Below are positions 34,170 to 45,191 of a DNA stretch of 64,000 bases, in pieces. A program made the translations under genes and the position numbers. Within the stretch, counting starts at the first letter, position 1; every line of letters starts with the position of its first letter. The notes under the pieces were generated by a model that saw only the letters and a program-made list of their open reading frames with translations, was not told the DNA's origin and did not search any database. The stretch spans positions 682,001-746,000 of the forward strand of contig NZ_LN849456.1 in NCBI RefSeq assembly GCF_900070355.1. Reading direction: 5' to 3'. This stretch comes from Devriesea agamarum. Lineage in GTDB: Bacteria > Actinomycetota > Actinomycetes > Actinomycetales > Dermabacteraceae.

Positions 34170-34895
34170 TCAGGCTTGGCCGTTGCGGTTCTTCAGCGCC
34201 GCCAACCGGGAATCCACATCCATCTGGTGCGCACTAGCCTCCAGGGATTCAAATTGCGCATCGAGCGAACTCGCCTGAATTTCCTGTCGGCCGACCACCT
34301 TGGCCTCTTCGCGCCGCACCTTTTCTTCAAAGCGAGTCAGTTCACTGGTCGGATCGAGCAGATCGATAGCACCCAAGGCATCGTTCATCCGGTTCTGAGC
34401 AGCCGCCGCTTTAGAACGCGCCACCAGCTGATCCCGTTTAGTGCGGAGCTCATCGAGTTTGACCCGCATCTGCTGCAGACCAACCTTCAGCTTTTCCACC
34501 GTTTCATTCTGGGCTGCGATGGTCGGTTCCACCGCGGCGACTTCATCCTCAGCTTGGATCTGGCGGGAGATCGCAATCCGGGCCAGATTGTCGAACTTAT
34601 CGGCCTCAGCTGCGCTTCCCTCGGCGCGCAGCTGATCTGCCCGCTGAGATGCGGCAAGAGCTTTGCCTTCCCATTCTTGCGCGGCTTTCTTATCTTCGTC
34701 ACGGTCGCGCTCAGACAGGCGCAGGTTACCGATGGTCTGAGCGACGGCAGCCTCCGCCTCCCGAATGTTCTCCGTATAGTCACGGATCATCTGGTCGAGC
34801 ATCTTCTCTGGATCCTCAGCCTGATCCAGAAGCGCATTAATATTTGCGCGGGTGAGCTGGGCAATCCGTCCGAGGATCGACTGCTTTTTGACCAT
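34170..34895 (-). CDS. pspA: PspA/IM30 family membrane-stress protein
   Basis: Peripheral membrane protein that forms helical scaffolds on stressed membranes. The 241-residue protein is almost entirely coiled coil, starting KKQSILGRIAQLTRANINAL and LLDQAEDPEKMLDQMIRDY, the conserved PspA amphipathic and first helices. The start at 34895 has AAAGGA upstream; the frame is open to 34958 with non-conserved residues. It follows, in the same direction, a membrane-anchored coiled-coil gene that is its usual partner type. Confidence 0.92.
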   Translation of the reverse strand: MVKKQSILGRIAQLTRANINALLDQAEDPEKMLDQMIRDYTENIREAEAAVAQTIGNLRLSERDRDEDKKAAQEWEGKALAASQRADQLRAEGSAAEADKFDNLARIAISRQIQAEDEVAAVEPTIAAQNETVEKLKVGLQQMRVKLDELRTKRDQLVARSKAAAAQNRMNDALGAIDLLDPTSELTRFEEKVRREEAKVVGRQEIQASSLDAQFESLEASAHQMDVDSRLAALKNRNGQA

Positions 34896-35012
34896 CATGA
34901 AGTCCTTTCGATTGCGATGCTCCTCGCGTTCTCGCCGCACAGGAGCCAACATTCCCACTCTAGTCTGATGCGCGCATCTACCCCGCCGATTTCACCGGCC
35001 AGACCGCGCGTT

Positions 35013-36476
35013 TTACCAGGGTCCAGGCCAGTTACCACGGCCCCCGCGAGACATCATCCCTGCCCGTGCTAGCGACCCCAGCACATCCCCGATGACATCG
35101 CTGGCTGTCTGCTCACTTTGCCGGCCCGGCTGCCAGGTATCGTCGGCGTCTGCGGCTCGGGCCTCCACATCGTCTTGAGCCTTAGCGAACGCATCCCGGG
35201 CGCGGCGTGCAGCCTCTTGCGCGCGCTCCCCTATCTGAGCCATCTCCCGCTCTGAGGTCACCGACTGTTTCAGCAGCGATTCAGCCTCACTCAGCAGCTG
35301 CTGCGCTTCCCCAAGCAGCGCCCGGGCAGGAGCCTGAATGCGGGTACGGTGAGACTCCATATATGTCGATGCCACTCTGACTTCGGAGCGAGCCGATTCC
35401 AGAGCTCTCGTCATAGTCCGAGCCACGGTCGAATTGGCGACGTACGCCTCTTGAGTGGCTGTGACAACGTCCTGCAAACGCACCGTCGCCTCTGTCACCC
35501 GGCCCAGTGCTGCCCGTGGATCGCGACGCGCCGCATCATCAAGTTCGGATGCCACTGATCGACCTAACGCTACGGCCTGCACTATGCGCGGGTCTGACCC
35601 AGAAACCGCCTCCGCCTGCACCAGCAAATCCAGCATCGCGCGCCGAGCCTCCGGCAATTTGACGCGAGACCTCGCGATTTCCTCCTCAAGATCATCAGCA
35701 ACATCGAGCAGACTCACCGCCTCATCGACGTCATGTTCCGCACGATGCAGCGCCGCAATAGCCTCGCCCCGGCCAGATGGATCACCCAAACCCTTTTCCG
35801 CGATACTCAGGCATTCCATCGCATCGGCTAAAGCCCGTTCGGCTCGATCCGGGTGTGCTGCAACAGCTACCACTGCCTCATGTGAGCATTCCTCGGCGAC
35901 GCCTCTGAGCTCCCCGCGAATGCCAGGGATCCGTGCCCTGGTTGCGTCCACGCGTTCTCGCAAGCTCACCAGCCGAGAACTGGCATGTGCCGCTTCGTCT
36001 CGCAACCGCCCAATCGCGGTGGTTGCGCTTTGCAGCTCGGTCAGCGCTGCATGGAGACGATCTCGAATGGCTTGCGCCGCATTCCGCGCGCCTTGTTCCC
36101 CGGCTACCTCGAGATTCTGGGAGTCGATGAGTCGTCTTTGAGCAAAGGAGGCATCTAAATCTCTCCGGGCGCGGGCCACTGCCTGCTGGAGCTGAACGGT
36201 CCTGTCAGCACCAAATTCTGCGTCCGCATATAGACGTTCTTGATCTGCCGCGGTGATGGCATCGTCACACTGGAGCAGTAACCGGTCCACATCGTCAAGG
36301 ACGCACGCGAGCGGTATCGCGGGGGCTGTGTGAACATCACCACCCGCCGCGCTTGCCGCTGAACGACGCCGTCGGGAGGATGCTGCACGCACTCCGCCCA
36401 CCAGCGCCAGGGCACCAACCGAGACCGCTATGAAACCTCCTCCAACCACGGGTAATACCAGGTCTGCGAGCCCCAT
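35013..36476 (-). CDS. Membrane-anchored coiled-coil protein related to TPM-domain PspA partners
   Basis: A 487-residue protein: one N-terminal transmembrane helix (VVGGGFIAVSVGALALVGGV) and then about 420 residues of coiled coil from CVLDDVDRLLLQCDDAIT onward, ending in a Gly/Trp-rich tail. In many actinobacteria the gene beside pspA codes for an exported TPM (YgcG-like) domain followed by a transmembrane helix and a similar coiled coil. Here the TPM domain and its signal peptide appear to be missing: the ATG at 36476 has TGAGGA before it and no TPM-like sequence lies upstream. Likely cooperates with PspA; the biochemical role is unknown. Confidence 0.7.
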   Translation of the reverse strand: MGLADLVLPVVGGGFIAVSVGALALVGGVRAASSRRRRSAASAAGGDVHTAPAIPLACVLDDVDRLLLQCDDAITAADQERLYADAEFGADRTVQLQQAVARARRDLDASFAQRRLIDSQNLEVAGEQGARNAAQAIRDRLHAALTELQSATTAIGRLRDEAAHASSRLVSLRERVDATRARIPGIRGELRGVAEECSHEAVVAVAAHPDRAERALADAMECLSIAEKGLGDPSGRGEAIAALHRAEHDVDEAVSLLDVADDLEEEIARSRVKLPEARRAMLDLLVQAEAVSGSDPRIVQAVALGRSVASELDDAARRDPRAALGRVTEATVRLQDVVTATQEAYVANSTVARTMTRALESARSEVRVASTYMESHRTRIQAPARALLGEAQQLLSEAESLLKQSVTSEREMAQIGERAQEAARRARDAFAKAQDDVEARAADADDTWQPGRQSEQTASDVIGDVLGSLARAGMMSRGGRGNWPGPW

Positions 36477-36682
36477 AGGATCCTCATTTCACGTTCGGTT
36501 TACACCATTGCACCGAGCCCGAAAAGCGCCGGGCCGGGCGACGCCTCTAGCATCTCAGATGGTCTTGCCTCCGGCAGGCCAAGCGCTTTCCGACAGTAGA
36601 GTACGGTGACGCGATCTCCCACCGGAAACCTTCCTGGGACTATCGTCCCCAGCCTTTAAGACATACCGTCATTATCCTTACC

Positions 36683-36716
36683 CTGCGCATCAAGATGCGC
36701 AGACCCGTTACGTAAC
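36683..36716 (+). promoter_or_regulatory. Two palindromes in the cydA leader
   Basis: CTGCGCATC-AA-GATGCGCAG (36683-36702) is a perfect 9+9 inverted repeat, and GTTACGTAAC (36707-36716) a perfect 10-bp palindrome. Both lie just before the cydA ribosome binding site (AAGGAA, 36720-36725). Either operators for redox control of the bd oxidase or a leader hairpin; no known consensus is claimed. Confidence 0.55.
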
Positions 36717-36731
36717 TCGAAGGAACCTGTC

Positions 36732-38297
36732 ATGGAAGCCCTCGATTTGGCCCGCTGGCAGTTCGGTATCACTACCGTCTACCACTTCATCTTTGTCCCT
36801 CTGACCATTGGCCTGTCGCTGATGGTGGCGATTATGCAGACTGTCGCCACATTCTCGAAAGATGAGGTTAAGCGTGCCTCCTGGACGCGCCTGACCAAGT
36901 TCTTCGGGCAGATGCTACTGATCAACTTCGGTGTCGGCATCGCCACCGGCATTGTCCAAGAGTTCCAGTTCGGCATGAACTGGAGCGAGTACTCACGCTT
37001 CGTCGGCGACATCTTCGGCGCCCCCCTCGCATTTGAAGGCCTCGCCGCCTTCTTCATGGAATCCACCTTCCTCGGCCTGTGGATGTTCGGCTGGGACCGC
37101 CTCCCAAAGAAGATTCACCTGCTGATGATCTGGCTGGTTGCCGTCGGAACCACGTTATCGGCCTACTTCATTTTGGCTGCTAACTCCTTTATGCAGCACC
37201 CGGTGGCCGCCGTCTTCAACCCAGAAACTGGCCGCGCTGAACTGGATCAGAGCCAGGGCGGCATCCTGGCCCTGCTGACCAACGTCACCACGCTTGCGGC
37301 CTTCCCCCATGTGATCGCCGGTGCCTGGCTGGTGGCGGCAGCGTTCGTTGCAGGTATCGCCACATGGCATCTGGTGCGCCACACCCGCAAAGCACAGAAG
37401 CTGGGCGCGTCCTCGACTGAGGGCAAGGTTCACCTTGAGCAGGCTCGCCGTGTCTTCCGCCCCGCGGTGCGCTTCGGTGTGATCGCCATGGTGATCGCTG
37501 GTGTCTTAGTGATCGTCACCGGCGACTTTCAAGCCAAGATCATGTTCAAGCAGCAGCCCATGAAAATGGCCAGTGCTGAGGCTCTGTGCAACACCACCAC
37601 CGGTGCCGACTTCTCAATTCTCGCTGTTGGCAGCCCGGATGCGTTCTCTGCGGACTGTTCTAGCGTTAGCCACCTGATCTCTCTTCCGAAAGTGACCTCA
37701 TTCCTTGCCACCAACGATCCGAACGCAACGCTCCAGGGCGTTGAGGATCTTCAAAAGGAATACCAAAAGAAGTTCGGCGACACCGTGACCACCGCCGATG
37801 GGCAGAGCGTCAAGGCTGATTACCGTCCGAACCTGTTCGTCACCTACTGGTCATTCCGTCTGATGATGGGCTTTGCCATCTTCTCCGCGATCTTGTGCCT
37901 GTGGGCCCTGTGGGCGACCCGTAAAAAACAGGAGCTGGCCGGAACCACCACCTCCCGGGTGCTCGCGTGGTTTGCGGTGCTGGCCATCCCCATGCCGTTC
38001 CTTGCGAACGCCTTCGGCTGGATCTTCACCGAAATGGGCCGTCAGCCATGGGTTGTGGCCCCGAGTCCGGATGGTGACCCGCTAGTGCGCCTGATGACCA
38101 TGCAGGGTGTGTCTAATCATCCGTCATGGGTTGTCGTTACCTCCCTGGTCGTGTTCACCCTGGTCTACGGCATTCTCGCCGTGGTGTGGTTCGGTCTGAT
38201 GCGCCGTTACGCAGCCAAGGGAATCCCACTGCCCGACACCGGCAAGGACGGCGAGAACGAATCGTCCAAGACCCCGGCCCTCTCCTTCGGATACTGA
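36732..38297 (+). CDS. cydA: Cytochrome bd quinol oxidase subunit I
   Basis: Subunit with the three haems and the quinol site of the high-affinity terminal oxidase in the cytoplasmic membrane. 521 residues: the N-terminus WQFGITTVYHFIFVPLTIGL contains His18, a haem b595 ligand in the family; GRQPWVV is the conserved motif near the C-terminal helices. About nine transmembrane segments. The Q-loop is the short form. First gene of cydABDC-histidine kinase; AAGGAA is a good ribosome binding site. Confidence 0.97.
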   Translation: MEALDLARWQFGITTVYHFIFVPLTIGLSLMVAIMQTVATFSKDEVKRASWTRLTKFFGQMLLINFGVGIATGIVQEFQFGMNWSEYSRFVGDIFGAPLAFEGLAAFFMESTFLGLWMFGWDRLPKKIHLLMIWLVAVGTTLSAYFILAANSFMQHPVAAVFNPETGRAELDQSQGGILALLTNVTTLAAFPHVIAGAWLVAAAFVAGIATWHLVRHTRKAQKLGASSTEGKVHLEQARRVFRPAVRFGVIAMVIAGVLVIVTGDFQAKIMFKQQPMKMASAEALCNTTTGADFSILAVGSPDAFSADCSSVSHLISLPKVTSFLATNDPNATLQGVEDLQKEYQKKFGDTVTTADGQSVKADYRPNLFVTYWSFRLMMGFAIFSAILCLWALWATRKKQELAGTTTSRVLAWFAVLAIPMPFLANAFGWIFTEMGRQPWVVAPSPDGDPLVRLMTMQGVSNHPSWVVVTSLVVFTLVYGILAVVWFGLMRRYAAKGIPLPDTGKDGENESSKTPALSFGY

Positions 38298-38310: not shown

Positions 38311-39372
38311 ATGGATCACTCCACACTCCAAATTCTTTGGTTCATTCTGATTGCCGTCCTCTTCATCGGCTACTTCATCCTCGAAGGATTCGATTTCGGC
38401 GTCGGCATCAACGTGTATGCGCTTGGGCGCCGGGACGAAACTCGTCAACGCATGATTTTGCGGTCGATCGGCCCGGTGTGGGACGGCAATGAGGTGTGGC
38501 TGCTTACCGGCGGCGGCGCCCTGTTTGCCGCCTTCCCCGAATGGTACGCCTCGCTCTTTACCGGGTTTTACCTCGCTCTTCTTCTGATTCTGCTGGCCTT
38601 GATCGTGCGCGTGTGCGCCTTTAAGTACCGCGACAAGATCGACTCTCCCCGGTGGCGGGCAGGCTGGAACCTCATGCACTTCCTCGGTGGCCTGCTACCC
38701 GCGCTGCTGTGGGGCGTCGCCTTCGCGAACATCGTCCAAGGCGTTGGCCTGAACCAGCACAAAGAGGTCACCACCACGCTGCTGGGGCTGCTGAACCCCT
38801 TCGGTCTGCTCGGTGGCATCGTGTTCGTCCTGCTGTTCTGGCTGCACGGAACTCTGTTCTTGGCCTTGAAGGTTGACGGCAAGCTGCGTGAGGATGCTAA
38901 CCGCCTGGCGGGAATCTTGATCTACCCCACGATCGTGGCCGGCGCGGCGTTCCTGCTGTGGACCCAGTTCGCCTACAGCAACAAGCTGTGGACCTGGATT
39001 CCGCTCATCATTGCGGCTCTGGCTCTCGTCGCCATCATTCCTTTGAACCGTATGCGGCGTGAAGGATGGTCTTTTGCGGCAACCAGTCTGGCCATTGCCA
39101 TGGCAGCGGTCGTTCTGTTCGGGTCCCTGTTCCCGAATGTGTTGCCGTCCACTACGGATCCCGCGTTCTCGCTCACGATCTACAACGCGTCCTCCACCAA
39201 GTACACTCTGGAGGTCATGACGATCGCGACGATCTGTCTGCTCCCGTTCGTTCTCGCATACCAAGCATGGACGTATTGGGTATTCCGTCGTCGCATCACC
39301 GAGGACGAAATCCCTGCCTCGGCGGGGCTCCTTCCTCGGGCTAAGGACGCTTACCGGAAGGCCTTCTCCTGA
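38311..39372 (+). CDS. cydB: Cytochrome bd quinol oxidase subunit II
   Basis: Structural partner of CydA, 353 residues with about eight or nine transmembrane helices. The family signature ILEGFDFGVGINVYALGRRD and WDGNEVWLLTGGGALFA are both near the N-terminus. It starts 13 bp after cydA. No cydX-like small gene is visible directly after it; cydD begins at once. Confidence 0.97.
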   Translation: MDHSTLQILWFILIAVLFIGYFILEGFDFGVGINVYALGRRDETRQRMILRSIGPVWDGNEVWLLTGGGALFAAFPEWYASLFTGFYLALLLILLALIVRVCAFKYRDKIDSPRWRAGWNLMHFLGGLLPALLWGVAFANIVQGVGLNQHKEVTTTLLGLLNPFGLLGGIVFVLLFWLHGTLFLALKVDGKLREDANRLAGILIYPTIVAGAAFLLWTQFAYSNKLWTWIPLIIAALALVAIIPLNRMRREGWSFAATSLAIAMAAVVLFGSLFPNVLPSTTDPAFSLTIYNASSTKYTLEVMTIATICLLPFVLAYQAWTYWVFRRRITEDEIPASAGLLPRAKDAYRKAFS

Positions 39373-39410: not shown

Positions 39411-41144
39411 GTGCCTCAGCGCCGTCCGCGCCGGCCACCACTGGACCCTCGTCTAGTGCGCCGAGTGCGGGCGGCGCGCCGCTATGTCACCCTCAGTGTG
39501 GTCCTTGGACTGGTGCAGGCACTATGCGTTATTGGCATCGCTATTTCCCTGGCTGACCTCGGCGCCCAACTGCTGGTTCATGGCACCTCTCCCATCGCTC
39601 GCCCGACAGCCCTGATCGCTCTCGCAGTCAGTCTTTTCGTGCGGATCGCCGCCACATTCATCCAACAGCGTTACGCGCACCGGGCGGCAACCGAAACCAT
39701 CGCCAATCTTCGTGTCCGCCTGGTGAAAACCGCGGCTGAGCTCGGACCGCGGGTTGGTACCAGCCGCGGGACCGATGTAACCGCGTTGGCGACCAAGGGT
39801 TTAGAGAATCTTCGCCCGTATCTGACCGGATACCTTCCCCAGCTGCTGCTAGCCGCCACAGTGACTCCGCTTTGTCTCGTCGTGGTGCTGGTTTTGGATC
39901 CCACCAGTTTCGTGCTGGCCATTATCACGCTGCCGCTCATCCCCATTTTCATGATTTTGATTGGGCTGCTGACCGAGGGCCGCAGTGCGCGACTGCTCGC
40001 AGACATGCGCACGCTGTGGTCTCAAACCCTCGATCTGGTCGAAGGTTTACCGACCCTGGTGATGCTCGGGCGGCGCCGAGGCCCGGAAAAGACCGTGCGC
40101 GATCTGTCGGATCGTCACCGTCTGTCTACCATCGCGACCTTGCGGTATGCGTTCCTATCGGCCATGGTTTTGGAACTGCTCGGCACCCTGTGTGTCGCGT
40201 TGATCGCGGTCGGAATCGGGCTTCGCCTAGTAACCGCCGACATGGAGCTCATGCCCGCCTTAGCGGTGCTGGTTCTCGCCCCGGAGATTTATCTTCCGCT
40301 GCGGCAAGTCGGCGCCCAGTTCCATGCATCCACTGACGGCTTAGCCGCGCTCGATGCCACCTTCGATGTGCTCGATGCTCCCCGCTCGGAGCCCGGTACT
40401 CAGGCTGCGCCGCAGCTTGCGCACACCACATTGCGGTGCGAAGGGCTGGCCGTCACCGCCCGCGACGGGTATGCGCCTGACCACCTCGATGCTGTGATCG
40501 CGCCCGGTCAGCTCACAGCCATCGTGGGCCCGAGCGGGGCGGGAAAGAGCACAACCATTGATGCGCTGCTCGGCCTCCTGCGTCCGGACTCAGGGCGCAT
40601 CGTCTTACAATCCGCCGACGGCGAGCTCAACCTTACCGACGTCGATCTCCCGTCATATTGGAACCAGATCACCTGGGTTCCTCAACGCGCGGTCCTTGAC
40701 GTGGGTACGGTGCGCGAAGCTGTGCTCGCGGGAACACCACTGGCTGAAAACCTGAGGACAACGAGTAGCGCCGTTGATGTGCAGCCTCAGCTCGATGCAG
40801 CGGCACACCGAACCGGACTAGACCAGGTGATTTCCCAGCTTCCTGAGGGGTGGGACACTCCTGTGGGTCGCCTGGGTACCGGACTATCACTCGGGCAACG
40901 CCAGCGGGTAGCGCTCACCCGCGCCTTATTTACCCACACTCCCCTGGTGATCTTGGATGAGCCGACGGCGCATCTGGACGCGGGAAGCGAACGAGCAATC
41001 CTTGACCTCATTGAGGAACTGCGCCGACATGGCCGCACCGTCATCATCGTCGCTCACCGGGAGACCCTCATCGATATCGCCGATACCGTCGTGCATGTTC
41101 ACCATCGTTACGTCTCAGACCAGAATGCGCAGGGGCCGGCATGA
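39411..41144 (+). CDS. cydD: ABC transporter CydD (cytochrome bd assembly)
   Basis: Half of the CydDC exporter needed for cytochrome bd assembly; the family exports thiols and binds haem. 577 residues: an N-terminal six-helix membrane domain, then an ATPase with Walker A GPSGAGKST, signature LSLGQRQRVAL and Walker B LVILDEPTAHLD. The GTG at 39411 lacks a clear ribosome binding site. The frame is open back into the end of cydB with no ATG, so translation probably follows from cydB by coupling, and the exact start is uncertain. Confidence 0.92.
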   Translation: MPQRRPRRPPLDPRLVRRVRAARRYVTLSVVLGLVQALCVIGIAISLADLGAQLLVHGTSPIARPTALIALAVSLFVRIAATFIQQRYAHRAATETIANLRVRLVKTAAELGPRVGTSRGTDVTALATKGLENLRPYLTGYLPQLLLAATVTPLCLVVVLVLDPTSFVLAIITLPLIPIFMILIGLLTEGRSARLLADMRTLWSQTLDLVEGLPTLVMLGRRRGPEKTVRDLSDRHRLSTIATLRYAFLSAMVLELLGTLCVALIAVGIGLRLVTADMELMPALAVLVLAPEIYLPLRQVGAQFHASTDGLAALDATFDVLDAPRSEPGTQAAPQLAHTTLRCEGLAVTARDGYAPDHLDAVIAPGQLTAIVGPSGAGKSTTIDALLGLLRPDSGRIVLQSADGELNLTDVDLPSYWNQITWVPQRAVLDVGTVREAVLAGTPLAENLRTTSSAVDVQPQLDAAAHRTGLDQVISQLPEGWDTPVGRLGTGLSLGQRQRVALTRALFTHTPLVILDEPTAHLDAGSERAILDLIEELRRHGRTVIIVAHRETLIDIADTVVHVHHRYVSDQNAQGPA

Positions 41145-43051
41145 GGACTGTGACACCGCTGAGCCAGGTCACCCGCATGATGGCGATTCCCCGCAGCCGC
41201 CTCATCGCGGCGGTTGTGTCAGCATCGGTGACGCTCGGCGCGGCCTACGCTTTGGCGGCCGTGTCCGCCTGGTTAGTTACGACCGCATGGACTAGGCCCC
41301 CGGTGCTCGATCTCACCGTGGCCGTGGTCTCTGTTCGCGCACTCGGCATATCCCGAGGGGTCTTTCGCTATCTCGACCGTCTGCTCACCCACGATGTGGC
41401 CCTACGCGGCGTTGTGAATTTACGGACCGGGATCTTCGCCTCCCTGGCCTCACAGGATTCAGCGCGGATTATGAGGTTGCGCCGAGGGGATCTGCTCGCT
41501 CGGCTTGGAACCGATGTGGACGAGCTTGGCGATCATGTGATTCGAGGGCTGGTACCGGCAGCAGTCTCGGGCGTGATGGCTGTCGTGGCTGTTGTGGTGA
41601 TTGCCCCTATTTCTCTGGCCGGGGCCACAATCATGTTGGTGTCGCTCCTGTTTGCCTCGGTGATGGCACCGGCGGCCGCGTATCGTTCATCACGCTTGCT
41701 GGAAGCATCCACCGTGCTGGCCCGATCCGAGCTCACAGCGAGAACTCTTGGAGTCCTAGAAGCCGCTCAAACCTTGCGCGTCAGCGGCGGTTTACCGCAT
41801 GAACTCCAACGCCTTCACGAGGATCAAGCCCGTTTCGACCGTTCCATCGACCGGGCCGCAATCCCTGAAGCTATCGCCGCCTCAGCCGTGCCCGCCGCCA
41901 CGTTGCTGGCTGTCGCCGGCTCTGTGTTCGCCGCTCCCGCTGTTCTCGCGCAGGGCGCTAGCGCAGGCCAGCTCGGCATGTTGATATTGCTTCCGCTGTC
42001 GGCATTTGAAGCCGCGACTGCCCTCCCTCAGGTTGCCCGCCAGATTGCGCGGTCGCGGGCGGCAGCTGCACGTCTGCATGATGTATTGCCGTCCCGGGCC
42101 GAGGATACTCAGTCTGCGGGCAGTGCCCTCACGCAACCTGCGGAGGAATCGGGAAAGTTCTTGGGCGACAATGAGTGCAGCGCCAAAGCTAATTCCAGGG
42201 CCAGAGGCACAGGCGATTCCAAGGTCACACACGACGGACCTGGGGTTGCATCGCGTGACGAGTACGCGATCCTTGCGCCCGTCCTGAGAGCAACGGACCT
42301 GACCATCGGCTGGACCCCAAAGCGTCCGCTTCTACAAGGCATCGACCTCACCATAGGACCCGGCACTCGCACCGCCGTGGTTGGCGCCTCCGGGCTCGGG
42401 AAAACCACGTTGCTCACAACGCTCGGCGGACTTCTACCGCCCCTGTCTGGGGATCTGACGATCGCCCAGAGTTCTCACGATGGCTCAGAACCCGTGCGGC
42501 TACCGCTTAGGAGCCTTTCCGAAAATACGGCCCGTGCCCTGATCACCGTTCACGCGGAAGACTCCCATGTTTTTGCCACGACGTTGCGGGAGAACGTACG
42601 AGTAGCGCGCGGCGACGCCTCCGACGAAGACATTCAGAATGCTCTCGTCGCCTCGGGGCTCGGCCCGTGGGTTCATTCGTTACCGGACGGGCTCTCAACC
42701 ATGCTGGCATCCGATGGAGTGAGCGTATCGGGCGGTGAACGACGTCGTCTTTTGCTTGCTCGGGCCTTCATACGGCGCAGTCCGATCACGTTACTGGATG
42801 AGCCCACCGAACATCTGGACACCGCATCGGGAGATGAACTTCTGCGGCGAATCCTCGCCACCGACAGCGAAGATGCGCTCTTTCCGCCAGACTCAGCTGT
42901 GGTTCTGGTCACCCACCGGATGCGGGCTCTTTACTCCTGTCATGACATCATCATCATCGACGAAGGACGCATTGCGGTTCGCGGAGATTTTGACACGGTC
43001 AGAACGCATCCCGTGGCTCGCACCCTGCTCAGCGAGGAGAACGATACGTGA
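41141..43051 (+). CDS. cydC: ABC transporter CydC (cytochrome bd assembly)
   Basis: Second half of the CydDC exporter, 636 residues. Membrane domain with six helices, a poorly conserved hydrophilic linker of about 60 residues (around 320-380), then the ATPase: Walker A GASGLGKTT, signature VSGGERRRLLLARAF, Walker B ITLLDEPTEHLD. Its ATG overlaps the cydD stop by four bases and its stop overlaps the next gene by four, so the three are translated together. Confidence 0.94.
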   Translation: MRTVTPLSQVTRMMAIPRSRLIAAVVSASVTLGAAYALAAVSAWLVTTAWTRPPVLDLTVAVVSVRALGISRGVFRYLDRLLTHDVALRGVVNLRTGIFASLASQDSARIMRLRRGDLLARLGTDVDELGDHVIRGLVPAAVSGVMAVVAVVVIAPISLAGATIMLVSLLFASVMAPAAAYRSSRLLEASTVLARSELTARTLGVLEAAQTLRVSGGLPHELQRLHEDQARFDRSIDRAAIPEAIAASAVPAATLLAVAGSVFAAPAVLAQGASAGQLGMLILLPLSAFEAATALPQVARQIARSRAAAARLHDVLPSRAEDTQSAGSALTQPAEESGKFLGDNECSAKANSRARGTGDSKVTHDGPGVASRDEYAILAPVLRATDLTIGWTPKRPLLQGIDLTIGPGTRTAVVGASGLGKTTLLTTLGGLLPPLSGDLTIAQSSHDGSEPVRLPLRSLSENTARALITVHAEDSHVFATTLRENVRVARGDASDEDIQNALVASGLGPWVHSLPDGLSTMLASDGVSVSGGERRRLLLARAFIRRSPITLLDEPTEHLDTASGDELLRRILATDSEDALFPPDSAVVLVTHRMRALYSCHDIIIIDEGRIAVRGDFDTVRTHPVARTLLSEENDT

Positions 43052-44289
43052 GCGCACACCCCGTGCCCGCCGGTGAACCGGATTTAGCCGGCCATGGCGC
43101 TAATGGCGGTATTCAGGCCCCTCCCGCGCAAACAGTGGCAGTCCCCTGGTACGACCTCTCTGTTGCGGTTCTCTCTGGGGCACTCACCGGTAGCGATGAC
43201 GAAGAACTCCTCACCCTGCTCATTAATCGAGCGGCCCAGGAACTGCATGCGCAGGGCGTGCTTCTGGTTCTTCCCGGAGTCAACGACACCTGGACCATCG
43301 AATTCGTAGCGGGTGGCCCACCAGGGCTCCTTGGGCTCGCCTACCCTCCCGACAGTGCTGTCGCACTTCGACTGGCAGGAACCGATGCCCCCGCCGTCGC
43401 GGAACTCGACGCCGTCGATCTGCTACCGCCTCGACTGTGCGACTCCACGTCTGACCTGTTGTGCGTTCCGTTAGCAGCCCCCGACGGAATCGGGGGTGCC
43501 TTCGTGGTGTGGCGCGATGAGAATGGCGATTCCGCATCGCAGAGCGTCCCTGCACCTGCCCCGCACTTTTCATCGGGGGACCGCACTCGGGCTAACGGGT
43601 TCGCGGTCATCGCCGCCTTCGCACTCGGGCTTGCCGCCGCCCACGTCGAGCATGAGGTAGATTCCTTAGCTGCTGAACGCCGACGCATCGCGCGTGACCT
43701 GCATGACCTGGCTATTCAGGAACTCTTTGCCGTCGGCATGCAGTTAGACCGGATCGCCGCCCGAGCTCAGGCTATGTCCGACGGTGACGATATCGCCACG
43801 TCCATCGCCCAATCACTGACCGGGGTCGACCACGCGGTGGCCCAGATCAGAGCCATTGTGCAGTCATTGCGCAGGGATTCACCGTCAGCGACTCTGTCCC
43901 AAAGGCTGCGTCATGAGGCCTCATTAGCTGTCACCGGTCTGGGCTTTTCACCAGCGCTGCAGTTAGACGCGGACGCCCTGGATCGGGAAGTCGATGACGA
44001 CATCGCCGAAGATGTGGTCGCCGTCGTGCGCGAGTGTTTAGCCAATGCCGCCCGGCACGCTGAAGCTAGCGCGGTGGCGGTGACCGTTACTGTTTTTGAC
44101 GAAGGTGTTGACCGAGTTGTGCGGGTCAATGTTTCAGACAATGGCAAGGGAATCGACCCGAGGGTGACGCGCAGCAGCGGTCTATCCAATATTCGTTCAC
44201 GGGCACGGCGACACAACGGTTGGGTTGACGTCATCGGTCTAGAACCCGGAACCATGATTTCGTGGCGGGTTACCCTCCCGCCGAAGTAA
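43048..44289 (+). CDS. GAF-domain sensor histidine kinase coupled to the cyd operon
   Basis: A soluble NarL-partner type kinase of 413 residues. A GAF-like sensor region (about residues 35-190; ELHAQGVLLVLPG, LLCVPLAAPDGIGGAFVVW) is followed by the HisKA_3 phosphoacceptor RRRIARDLHDLAIQELFAVG and an ATPase domain with VRECLANAARHAEAS and VSDNGKGID. No transmembrane helix is seen. The GTG start overlaps the cydC stop (GTGA) and GAGGAGA precedes it. The likely partner is the convergent response regulator downstream. A redox or oxygen signal controlling the bd oxidase is an inference from position. Confidence 0.9.
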   Translation: MSAHPVPAGEPDLAGHGANGGIQAPPAQTVAVPWYDLSVAVLSGALTGSDDEELLTLLINRAAQELHAQGVLLVLPGVNDTWTIEFVAGGPPGLLGLAYPPDSAVALRLAGTDAPAVAELDAVDLLPPRLCDSTSDLLCVPLAAPDGIGGAFVVWRDENGDSASQSVPAPAPHFSSGDRTRANGFAVIAAFALGLAAAHVEHEVDSLAAERRRIARDLHDLAIQELFAVGMQLDRIAARAQAMSDGDDIATSIAQSLTGVDHAVAQIRAIVQSLRRDSPSATLSQRLRHEASLAVTGLGFSPALQLDADALDREVDDDIAEDVVAVVRECLANAARHAEASAVAVTVTVFDEGVDRVVRVNVSDNGKGIDPRVTRSSGLSNIRSRARRHNGWVDVIGLEPGTMISWRVTLPPK

Positions 44290-44318
44290 CGCACGGTCGG
44301 CGAGGCGGCGCGCAACAG

Positions 44319-44432
44319 GCGAGATGGTGCGCAGTGAACGGGGTGGCGCGCAGCGGCCGAGGCAGTGCGTAGTGAAAGGGGTGGCGCGCAGCGGGCGAGA
44401 TGGCGCGTGTTGAACAAGGCGGGCGCGAGTTA
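44319..44432. repeat. Imperfect 38-bp tandem repeat
   Basis: Three consecutive units: 44319-44356, 44357-44394 and a more diverged one from 44395. The first two share GTGGCGCGCAGCGG as their last 14 bases, with a G/A-rich first half. It lies after the kinase stop, between convergent genes. Part of a fourth unit seems to precede it at about 44299. Confidence 0.75.
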
Positions 44433-44480
44433 ACCGGCGTCAGCACAATGAACGGTGCTTAGCCAAAGCCGGCAAGGATT

Positions 44481-44560
44481 TCACGACGAGCCCTCCCCGT
44501 CGTGATACCGGTGACCTCGTATGGATACCGGTGCTGAATACGAAATATACGGGGGTATAT
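44481..44560. terminator. Hairpins between kinase and response regulator genes
   Basis: TCACGACG (44481-44488) pairs with CGTCGTGA (44498-44505) around a 9-nt loop, and ATATAC-GGGG-GTATAT (44545-44560) forms a second hairpin right after the regulator stop. ATACCGGTG is directly repeated at 44505 and 44525. Likely the terminator of the regulator gene. Confidence 0.5.
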
Positions 44561-44561
44561 A

Positions 44562-45191
44562 TCAGTGCTGCTGCCAACCGGCAGCGTGACGACCAGCGAC
44601 CCAAGCTGCAATCTGCGTCCGGCGAGTGAGCCCCATCTTGGACAAAATCTGGGTGAGACGATTCTTGACCGTCTTCTCCGCAATCCCCATTGCCGCGGCG
44701 ATCTCACGGTTAGACCGCCCCTCCCCAATCAGCTCGACGATGCGCACCTCAACGTCGGTGAGGTCGAATGAGGAGAAATCATCTTCCTCCTCAACCACAA
44801 CCCCTTTCCAATCATCGGTGCCCGCCACCACACTGCGAATCGCAGCCAACATTTCAGTGCTGCGTACCGTCTTGAGCAAGAAGCCTCGCGCCCCGAGTTC
44901 CTGGGATGCTTTCACCGCAGCCTGATCATCAAATGACGTGAGAACCAGCATCAGCTGCTCAGGATTGAGTTGACGAGCCTGAGTCATCACATCCACACCA
45001 GTGCCATCAGGAAGCTGAAGGTCCACGAGAAGAAGATCCGGCCGCACCGCCGGAAGCCGACGCAACGCCTCCGCCACGGTAGATGCCTCCGCGACCACGC
45101 TGAGGTCCTCCGCACTGTCGATCACATCGGCAATACCTCGGCGAACCACCTCATGGTCATCGACGATCATCACTCGTGTCGTGTTGCTCAT
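44562..45191 (-). CDS. NarL/DevR-type response regulator
   Basis: A 209-residue two-component regulator. The receiver domain has the acidic pair VDDHE, phosphoacceptor Asp in LLLVDLQLPDGTG, LTSF and the lysine in FLLKTV. The C-terminal LuxR-type helix-turn-helix is FDLTDVEVRIVELIGEGRSN, then REIAAAMGIAEKTVKNRL. It is convergent with the GAF kinase gene at the end of the cyd operon, its probable partner. The cyd leader palindromes are candidate targets, which is speculative. Confidence 0.93.
   Translation of the reverse strand: MSNTTRVMIVDDHEVVRRGIADVIDSAEDLSVVAEASTVAEALRRLPAVRPDLLLVDLQLPDGTGVDVMTQARQLNPEQLMLVLTSFDDQAAVKASQELGARGFLLKTVRSTEMLAAIRSVVAGTDDWKGVVVEEEDDFSSFDLTDVEVRIVELIGEGRSNREIAAAMGIAEKTVKNRLTQILSKMGLTRRTQIAAWVAGRHAAGWQQH

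Follow-up and report, generated by a model that had tools for sequence, protein, structure and literature searches.

A stretch of 64,000 nucleotides of the genome of Devriesea agamarum (positions 682,001 to 746,000 of NZ_LN849456.1, within a single 2.96-Mb contig), referred to here as the window, carries the cytochrome bd oxidase genes cydABDC, the gene of a sensor kinase that follows them, and the gene of a response regulator that faces the kinase gene from the other strand. We consider it likely that the two proteins form a two-component system for low oxygen that belongs to the DevR/DosR type, and that the kinase is produced from the very operon under the system's control, namely cydABDC. 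The terms family and order refer throughout to the taxa of this genome, and the elements under discussion are the following.

36636–36649, no strand assigned: DosR-type box GGGACTATCGTCCC upstream of cydA, the sole GGGACN4GTCCC of the window.
36673–36678, forward strand: predicted −10 element TATCCT of the cydA promoter, which fits TANNNT; a prediction from aligned leaders.
36732–38297, forward strand: cydA, an open reading frame (ORF) named by similarity only (E. coli-type NCBIfam models, E 7e-80, under their cut-offs).
38311–39372, forward strand: cydB, an ORF over the curated cut-off of NCBIfam TIGR00203.
39411–41144, forward strand: cydD, an ORF over the curated cut-off of NCBIfam TIGR02857.
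41141–43051, forward strand: cydC, an ORF over the curated cut-off of NCBIfam TIGR02868.
43048–43051, forward strand: GTGA, the overlap of 4 base pairs (bp) between the cydC stop and the kinase start, as read in the sequence.
43048–44289, forward strand: sensor kinase of 413 residues with a GAF-B-like part, HisKA_3 and HATPase_c, and no GAF-A.
44562–45191, reverse strand: DevR-like response regulator of the NarL/LuxR type, 209 residues, with Response_reg and GerE.

The oxidase genes stand on one strand in the order cydA, cydB, cydD, cydC, as expected of a cydABDC operon, and the TGA stop codon of cydC lies inside the GTGA whose GTG is the start codon of the kinase gene. This succession, together with a NarL-type regulator facing the kinase, had been described in the original prediction, and both are borne out by the ORFs, the overlap, the domains of the regulator, and its convergent orientation. 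The same prediction spoke of a translational fusion, which we reject because cydC and the kinase gene are two separate ORFs that overlap by 4 bp; they are overlapping genes whose translation is possibly coupled. Overlaps of this size are common between adjacent genes of bacterial operons. A promoter scan of the window returned one promoter-like site, against 2.1 expected, and none upstream of the kinase gene, while a terminator scan returned 10 terminator-like sites, against 5.6 expected. As judged from the sequence, the kinase gene is the final gene of an apparent cyd unit and probably shares a transcript with cydABDC. In the interval that separates the kinase gene from the convergent regulator gene, at 44299–44407, there are short imperfect tandem repeats with periods of 38 and 19.

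The order of cyd genes, kinase and convergent regulator recurs across the order. Of the 47 family genomes, 46 have a relative of the kinase (E <= 1e-15); among the 297 genomes of the order the figure is 116, counting the genome of the window (E <= 1e-35). A kinase scan of genome contigs gave one distant locus. Among the matches listed, which for the regulator reach down to about E 7e-55, the best regulator match lies on the kinase contig in 109 of the 115 other order genomes and on another contig in 6, and in all 109 the regulator gene is downstream of the kinase gene and convergent with it, at a distance of less than 2.5 kb in 91, less than 10 kb in 15, and farther in 3. A CydC match (E <= 1e-50) is present among those listed for 73 of the 115 kinase genomes, with none at that cut-off in the other 42; 71 of these matches are directly upstream of the kinase on the same strand, one is far off, and one is on another contig. 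The regulatory unit is real, conserved, and well marked.

A set of 41 loci, consisting of the window and 40 relatives (21 loci from the family, 20 from outside it), was then read at the level of bases. Of the 21 family loci, 16 show the 4-bp overlap NTGA with the start codon in frame with the kinase, as do 8 of the 20 outside ones, and two further family loci have a 1-bp overlap, TGATG, so that the overlap recurs more often than chance would have it. In L078, L083 and L095, kinase and regulator genes are 2.3 to 3.9 kb apart, and convergent all the same.

The second line of evidence is the putative operator in front of cydA. The box GGGACTATCGTCCC stands 82 bp before the gene, and it is the one GGGACN4GTCCC site of the 64 kb, where chance would give a mean of 0.15; it shares the layout GGGAC-N4-GTCCC with the DosR consensus TTSGGGACTWWAGTCCCSAA. 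For the relatives, three of the 41 loci (L082, L084, and L094) lack a usable cydA start and were excluded, which leaves 38 leaders. In 32 of these 38, the 400 bp in front of cydA contain the shorter form GGACN4GTCC (first-order Markov resamples: mean 0.91, maximum 4); by a hand count on genus labels, this amounts to 16 of 21 genera. Spacers other than 4, from 0 to 12, were found in the cydA leaders of at most 4 loci, and 400-bp segments taken downstream contained GGACN4GTCC in 3 of 570 cases. When the 32 leaders are aligned on the box, a modest T/A peak appears at about +30.5 from its centre and fits a TANNNT −10 element. Because the predicted −10 of the window lies at 36673–36678, the box would sit near −42 of the predicted cydA promoter, a position that fits an overlap with the −35 region provided that this −10, and with it the predicted transcription start, holds. 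In DevR target promoters, the start-proximal box overlaps the −35 region and the promoters are activated (PMC3029386).

A control was built from cyd loci that lack the kinase: of the 25 order genomes with a listed CydC and no listed kinase, 16 were used; the rest comprised 5 in which a convergent regulator lies near cydC and 4 more. The box is present in 5 of these 16 loci, none of which has the kinase in the stretch read, versus 32 of the 38 kinase-bearing loci (Fisher p 0.0003, a guide only because the loci are related by descent). An operator at cydA is well supported by the sequence, and from it we infer binding by the regulator.

Two other elements were noted in the cydA leaders. The palindrome TGCGCATCAAGATGCGCA, at 36684–36701, starts roughly where transcription of cydA is predicted to begin, and it could fold into a hairpin at the 5′ end; the leader starting at this palindrome folds little better than its shuffles (z −0.9). 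In L061 to L074, just 3′ of the predicted cydA −10, an inverted repeat like GTGACAGCGTGTCAC is seen by eye in many leaders of genus g2, and is possibly a second operator.

As for the protein expected to bind the box, the regulator consists of a receiver (Response_reg) and a GerE domain, and its nearest relative in the PDB is DevR (3c3w, E 1.3e-37), followed by VraR (1.2e-28), which is the profile of the DevR/DosR class. The stretch AEKTVKN is identical in the regulator and DevR, and residues K179, K182 and N183 of DevR correspond to K173, K176 and N177 of the regulator, all three conserved; in DosR, they are core DNA-binding residues (PMC5999986). Among the matches listed, the genome of the window has one match to the regulator at E <= 1e-38, and further DevR-like regulators are present in many genomes of the order.

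The kinase completes the resemblance in its core and departs from it at its N-terminus. Its HisKA_3 and HATPase_c domains (Pfam) are those of the DevS/DosT core, and the ATPase domain is nearest to 8sbm, DevS and DosT. The original prediction of a GAF kinase stands as regards the kinase part, while no GAF model at E <= 1 is found in the window protein; such a model at E <= 0.01 is found in 5 of the 21 aligned family kinases. The part before HisKA_3 aligns with the GAF-B of relatives, and a profile of the 21-row alignment reaches, in that part, 2vjw, which is the GAF-B of M. smegmatis DosS (PMC4082495), so that the window kinase presumably has a GAF domain, as judged from its relatives. A single-sequence fold of the kinase (pLDDT 44.5) was unusable.

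What is missing is GAF-A. The kinase measures 536–590 residues in 18 of the 20 outside relatives versus 359–426 in the 21 family loci (for L089 the kinase start is not settled). In L078, the additional N-terminal part matches the GAF-A of DosT (2vzw, 9.8e-30) and of DevS (2w3d, 8.2e-27), and the profile of the 21-row alignment matches DevS/DosT GAF-A at 2.2e-40. The proximal heme histidine is His149 in DevS and His147 in DosT (PMC4082495); it is the histidine before PPM, at chain position 92, and this equals residue 149 because the construct begins with five additional residues followed by residue 63. An alignment reading places HP at the heme position in 14 of the 18 long relatives, with four lacking it, and the stricter motif HPxMxxF is found in 11 of the 18. 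According to lengths and alignment, GAF-A is absent from the window kinase, from 20 aligned family members, and from the outside relatives L086 and L096, and a GAF-A query against the 47 family genomes (E <= 1e-4) returned four weak matches of 25%, none of them in the genome of the window. A family genome of another genus (G044) has a 512-residue open frame whose short N-terminal piece, devoid of the heme motif, is perhaps a GAF-A remnant. Because GAF-A is missing, direct heme gas sensing by the window kinase is unlikely; most likely, either its activity is constitutive and limited by dose, or GAF-B conveys to it a signal from redox state or from a ligand.

The reach of the system was estimated from further boxes. 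The genes cydA, nrdD, pflB and arcA serve low-oxygen or anaerobic metabolism. The motif GGGACSATSGTCCC has 20 sites in the 47 family genomes (reversed control, 5): 11 are directly upstream of cydA, 2 precede nrdD, and 1 precedes pflB in the genome of the window, another five stand at no low-oxygen target, and in three of the five the site overlaps the beginning of a flavin-oxidoreductase-like ORF; one further site is unread. Every one of the 21 family genomes in which nrdD was matched has GGACN4GTCC in the 350 bp upstream of that gene (control mean 0.32, maximum 3). The refined consensus RGGACYWWSGTCCY has four sites in the genome of the window (reversed control, two), before cydA, nrdD, pflB and arcA; as it was written after the first three were known, the arcA site alone is new.

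Taken together, we propose that the regulator, having received phosphate from the kinase of the pair, binds GGGACTATCGTCCC at 36636–36649 and would activate cydABDC, in analogy to DevR, whose boxes overlap −35, and that in its own genome it probably controls nrdD, pflB and arcA too. As the kinase would be translated from the same transcript as its target, activation would raise the kinase supply and close a feedback loop, which would be positive because DevR, by analogy, is an activator. Falling oxygen would thereby switch on the bd oxidase, more kinase, nrdD, and some lineage-specific anaerobic genes. The original prediction had suggested a feedback between the oxidase and its sensor, and this idea is plausible and unproven: the kinase gene at the end of the cyd unit, the overlap in relatives, and the box at the cydA promoter, which is what a loop between regulator and cydA requires, speak in its favor. 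The operator, the relationship to DevR, nrdD and the other likely targets, and the missing GAF-A are additions to that prediction. More tentatively, and with a good deal less confidence, one may suppose that in this family the kinase has lost its gas-sensing domain and functions as GAF-B plus kinase, and that its output is set largely by the amount of kinase made from the cyd operon, possibly joined by a signal linked to redox state or quinones, giving a self-reinforcing low-oxygen switch that couples the bd oxidase to anaerobic DNA precursor synthesis through nrdD.

Several observations weigh against this proposal. The exact box is absent from 6 of the 38 cydA leaders (two of the six, L075 and L076, have near-boxes by eye), and it persists in the five kinase-free loci mentioned above. 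Across the genome of the window, GGGACN4GTCCC is not enriched (7 sites versus 5 in the reversed control), and two more such sites precede the genes of ornithine carbamoyltransferase and glycerol-3-phosphate dehydrogenase. The 350 bp in front of pflB contain GGACN4GTCC in 5 of 22 cases (control mean 0.41, maximum 3), and the motif stands upstream of arcA in 1 of the 30 loci read (control mean 0.64), so that neither is upheld as a family-wide target. A box precedes the regulator gene in 2 of the 41 loci, and autoregulation as in devR was set aside. Oxygen sensing by a kinase without GAF-A is unexplained.

The alternative that fares best, and to which we grant a substantial chance while leaving it short of probable, is co-expression without meaningful feedback: the regulator would control cydA via the box, the kinase would be saturating, and its activity would be set by a signal at GAF-B or the kinase core. 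The ordinariness of 4-bp overlaps in operons agrees with it, as does the lack of the exact overlap in 12 of the 20 outside loci despite the kept gene order. Against it stands the M. smegmatis construct of GAF-B plus kinase, which was active in all conditions and no longer gas-responsive (PMC4082495), and because of this permanent activity the amount of a kinase that lacks GAF-A could be of consequence. We regard it as improbable that the regulator acts as a repressor, obstructing the cydA promoter from a position near −35, with the kinase relieving or setting this block in a negative loop; a site beside −35 could hinder RNA polymerase, and the sign is not given by the sequence, but the DevR promoters with a box overlapping −35 are activated (PMC3029386), and the remaining sites precede low-oxygen genes expected to be induced together. 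It is equally hard to credit that another regulator uses the box while the adjacent pair acts elsewhere, as the kinase-free loci with a box and the DevR-like regulators listed in many order genomes might suggest, since the genome of the window has the single listed match at E <= 1e-38, the box is more frequent at cyd loci with a linked kinase, and the DNA-contact residues equal those of DosR.

From the proposed system, DevR/DosR-type control of the bd oxidase and of anaerobic ribonucleotide reductase is predicted, with an operator specified at the level of bases, for many actinobacteria beyond mycobacteria. In addition, these natural kinases without GAF-A could reveal the role of GAF-B, left unclear in the review PMC4082495, and whether kinase dose can replace ligand sensing.

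Regarding the neighborhood of cydA, the region 34170–36476, divergent from it, holds an ORF of 487 residues that has no Pfam match and a gene of the PspA/IM30 family. In 25 of the 38 loci (e.g., L062, L070, and L077), and not in the window, AGTAT[CG][GA]CACA lies upstream of cydA; on the opposite strand, it resembles an extended −10, after which comes a leader some 230 bases long, conserved and containing GACTTCCGTC...GACGA (L181:1178–1414). The gene after this leader is that of RNase E in the single locus checked, and a cis-acting RNA of rne is possible; Rfam gave no relevant match for four loci of the leader, and nothing relevant in its scans overall.

Among the matches listed from open-access literature (titles and the beginnings of abstracts), no DevR-type pair was tied to cydABDC. 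HrrSA and PrrAB are likewise two-component systems that affect the expression of terminal oxidases or cydA, and PrrAB supports cydA expression in M. smegmatis (PMC6898941), but they use other regulators, and the sections available do not describe a kinase inside the cyd operon for them. A CO study found cytochrome bd to be induced together with some of the dos regulon, DosR being required for the dos part (PMC8125079). OsdK/OsdR of Streptomyces coelicolor is likewise of the DevR type though not mycobacterial, and its palindrome, AGGGCCGATCGGCCCT, and one listed site, GGGGACGATCGTCCCC, are laid out as the window box (PMC5069765); its predicted targets differ, being stress-protein, nitrate-reductase, and other genes, and the string "cyd" is absent from the main text of that paper. 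The mycobacterial DevR/DosR and DevS/DosT share with the present system the homology of the regulator, the DNA-contact residues, the shape of the box, and its place near −35, which is predicted here, while the kinases of the outside relatives carry the DevS/DosT-like N-terminal domain. The differences are the following: in mycobacteria, kinase and regulator share an operon with autoregulation, whereas here the two genes are convergent, the regulator gene rarely has a box, the kinases of the window's family are without GAF-A, and the kinase gene ends cydABDC, which together with nrdD is the predicted target.

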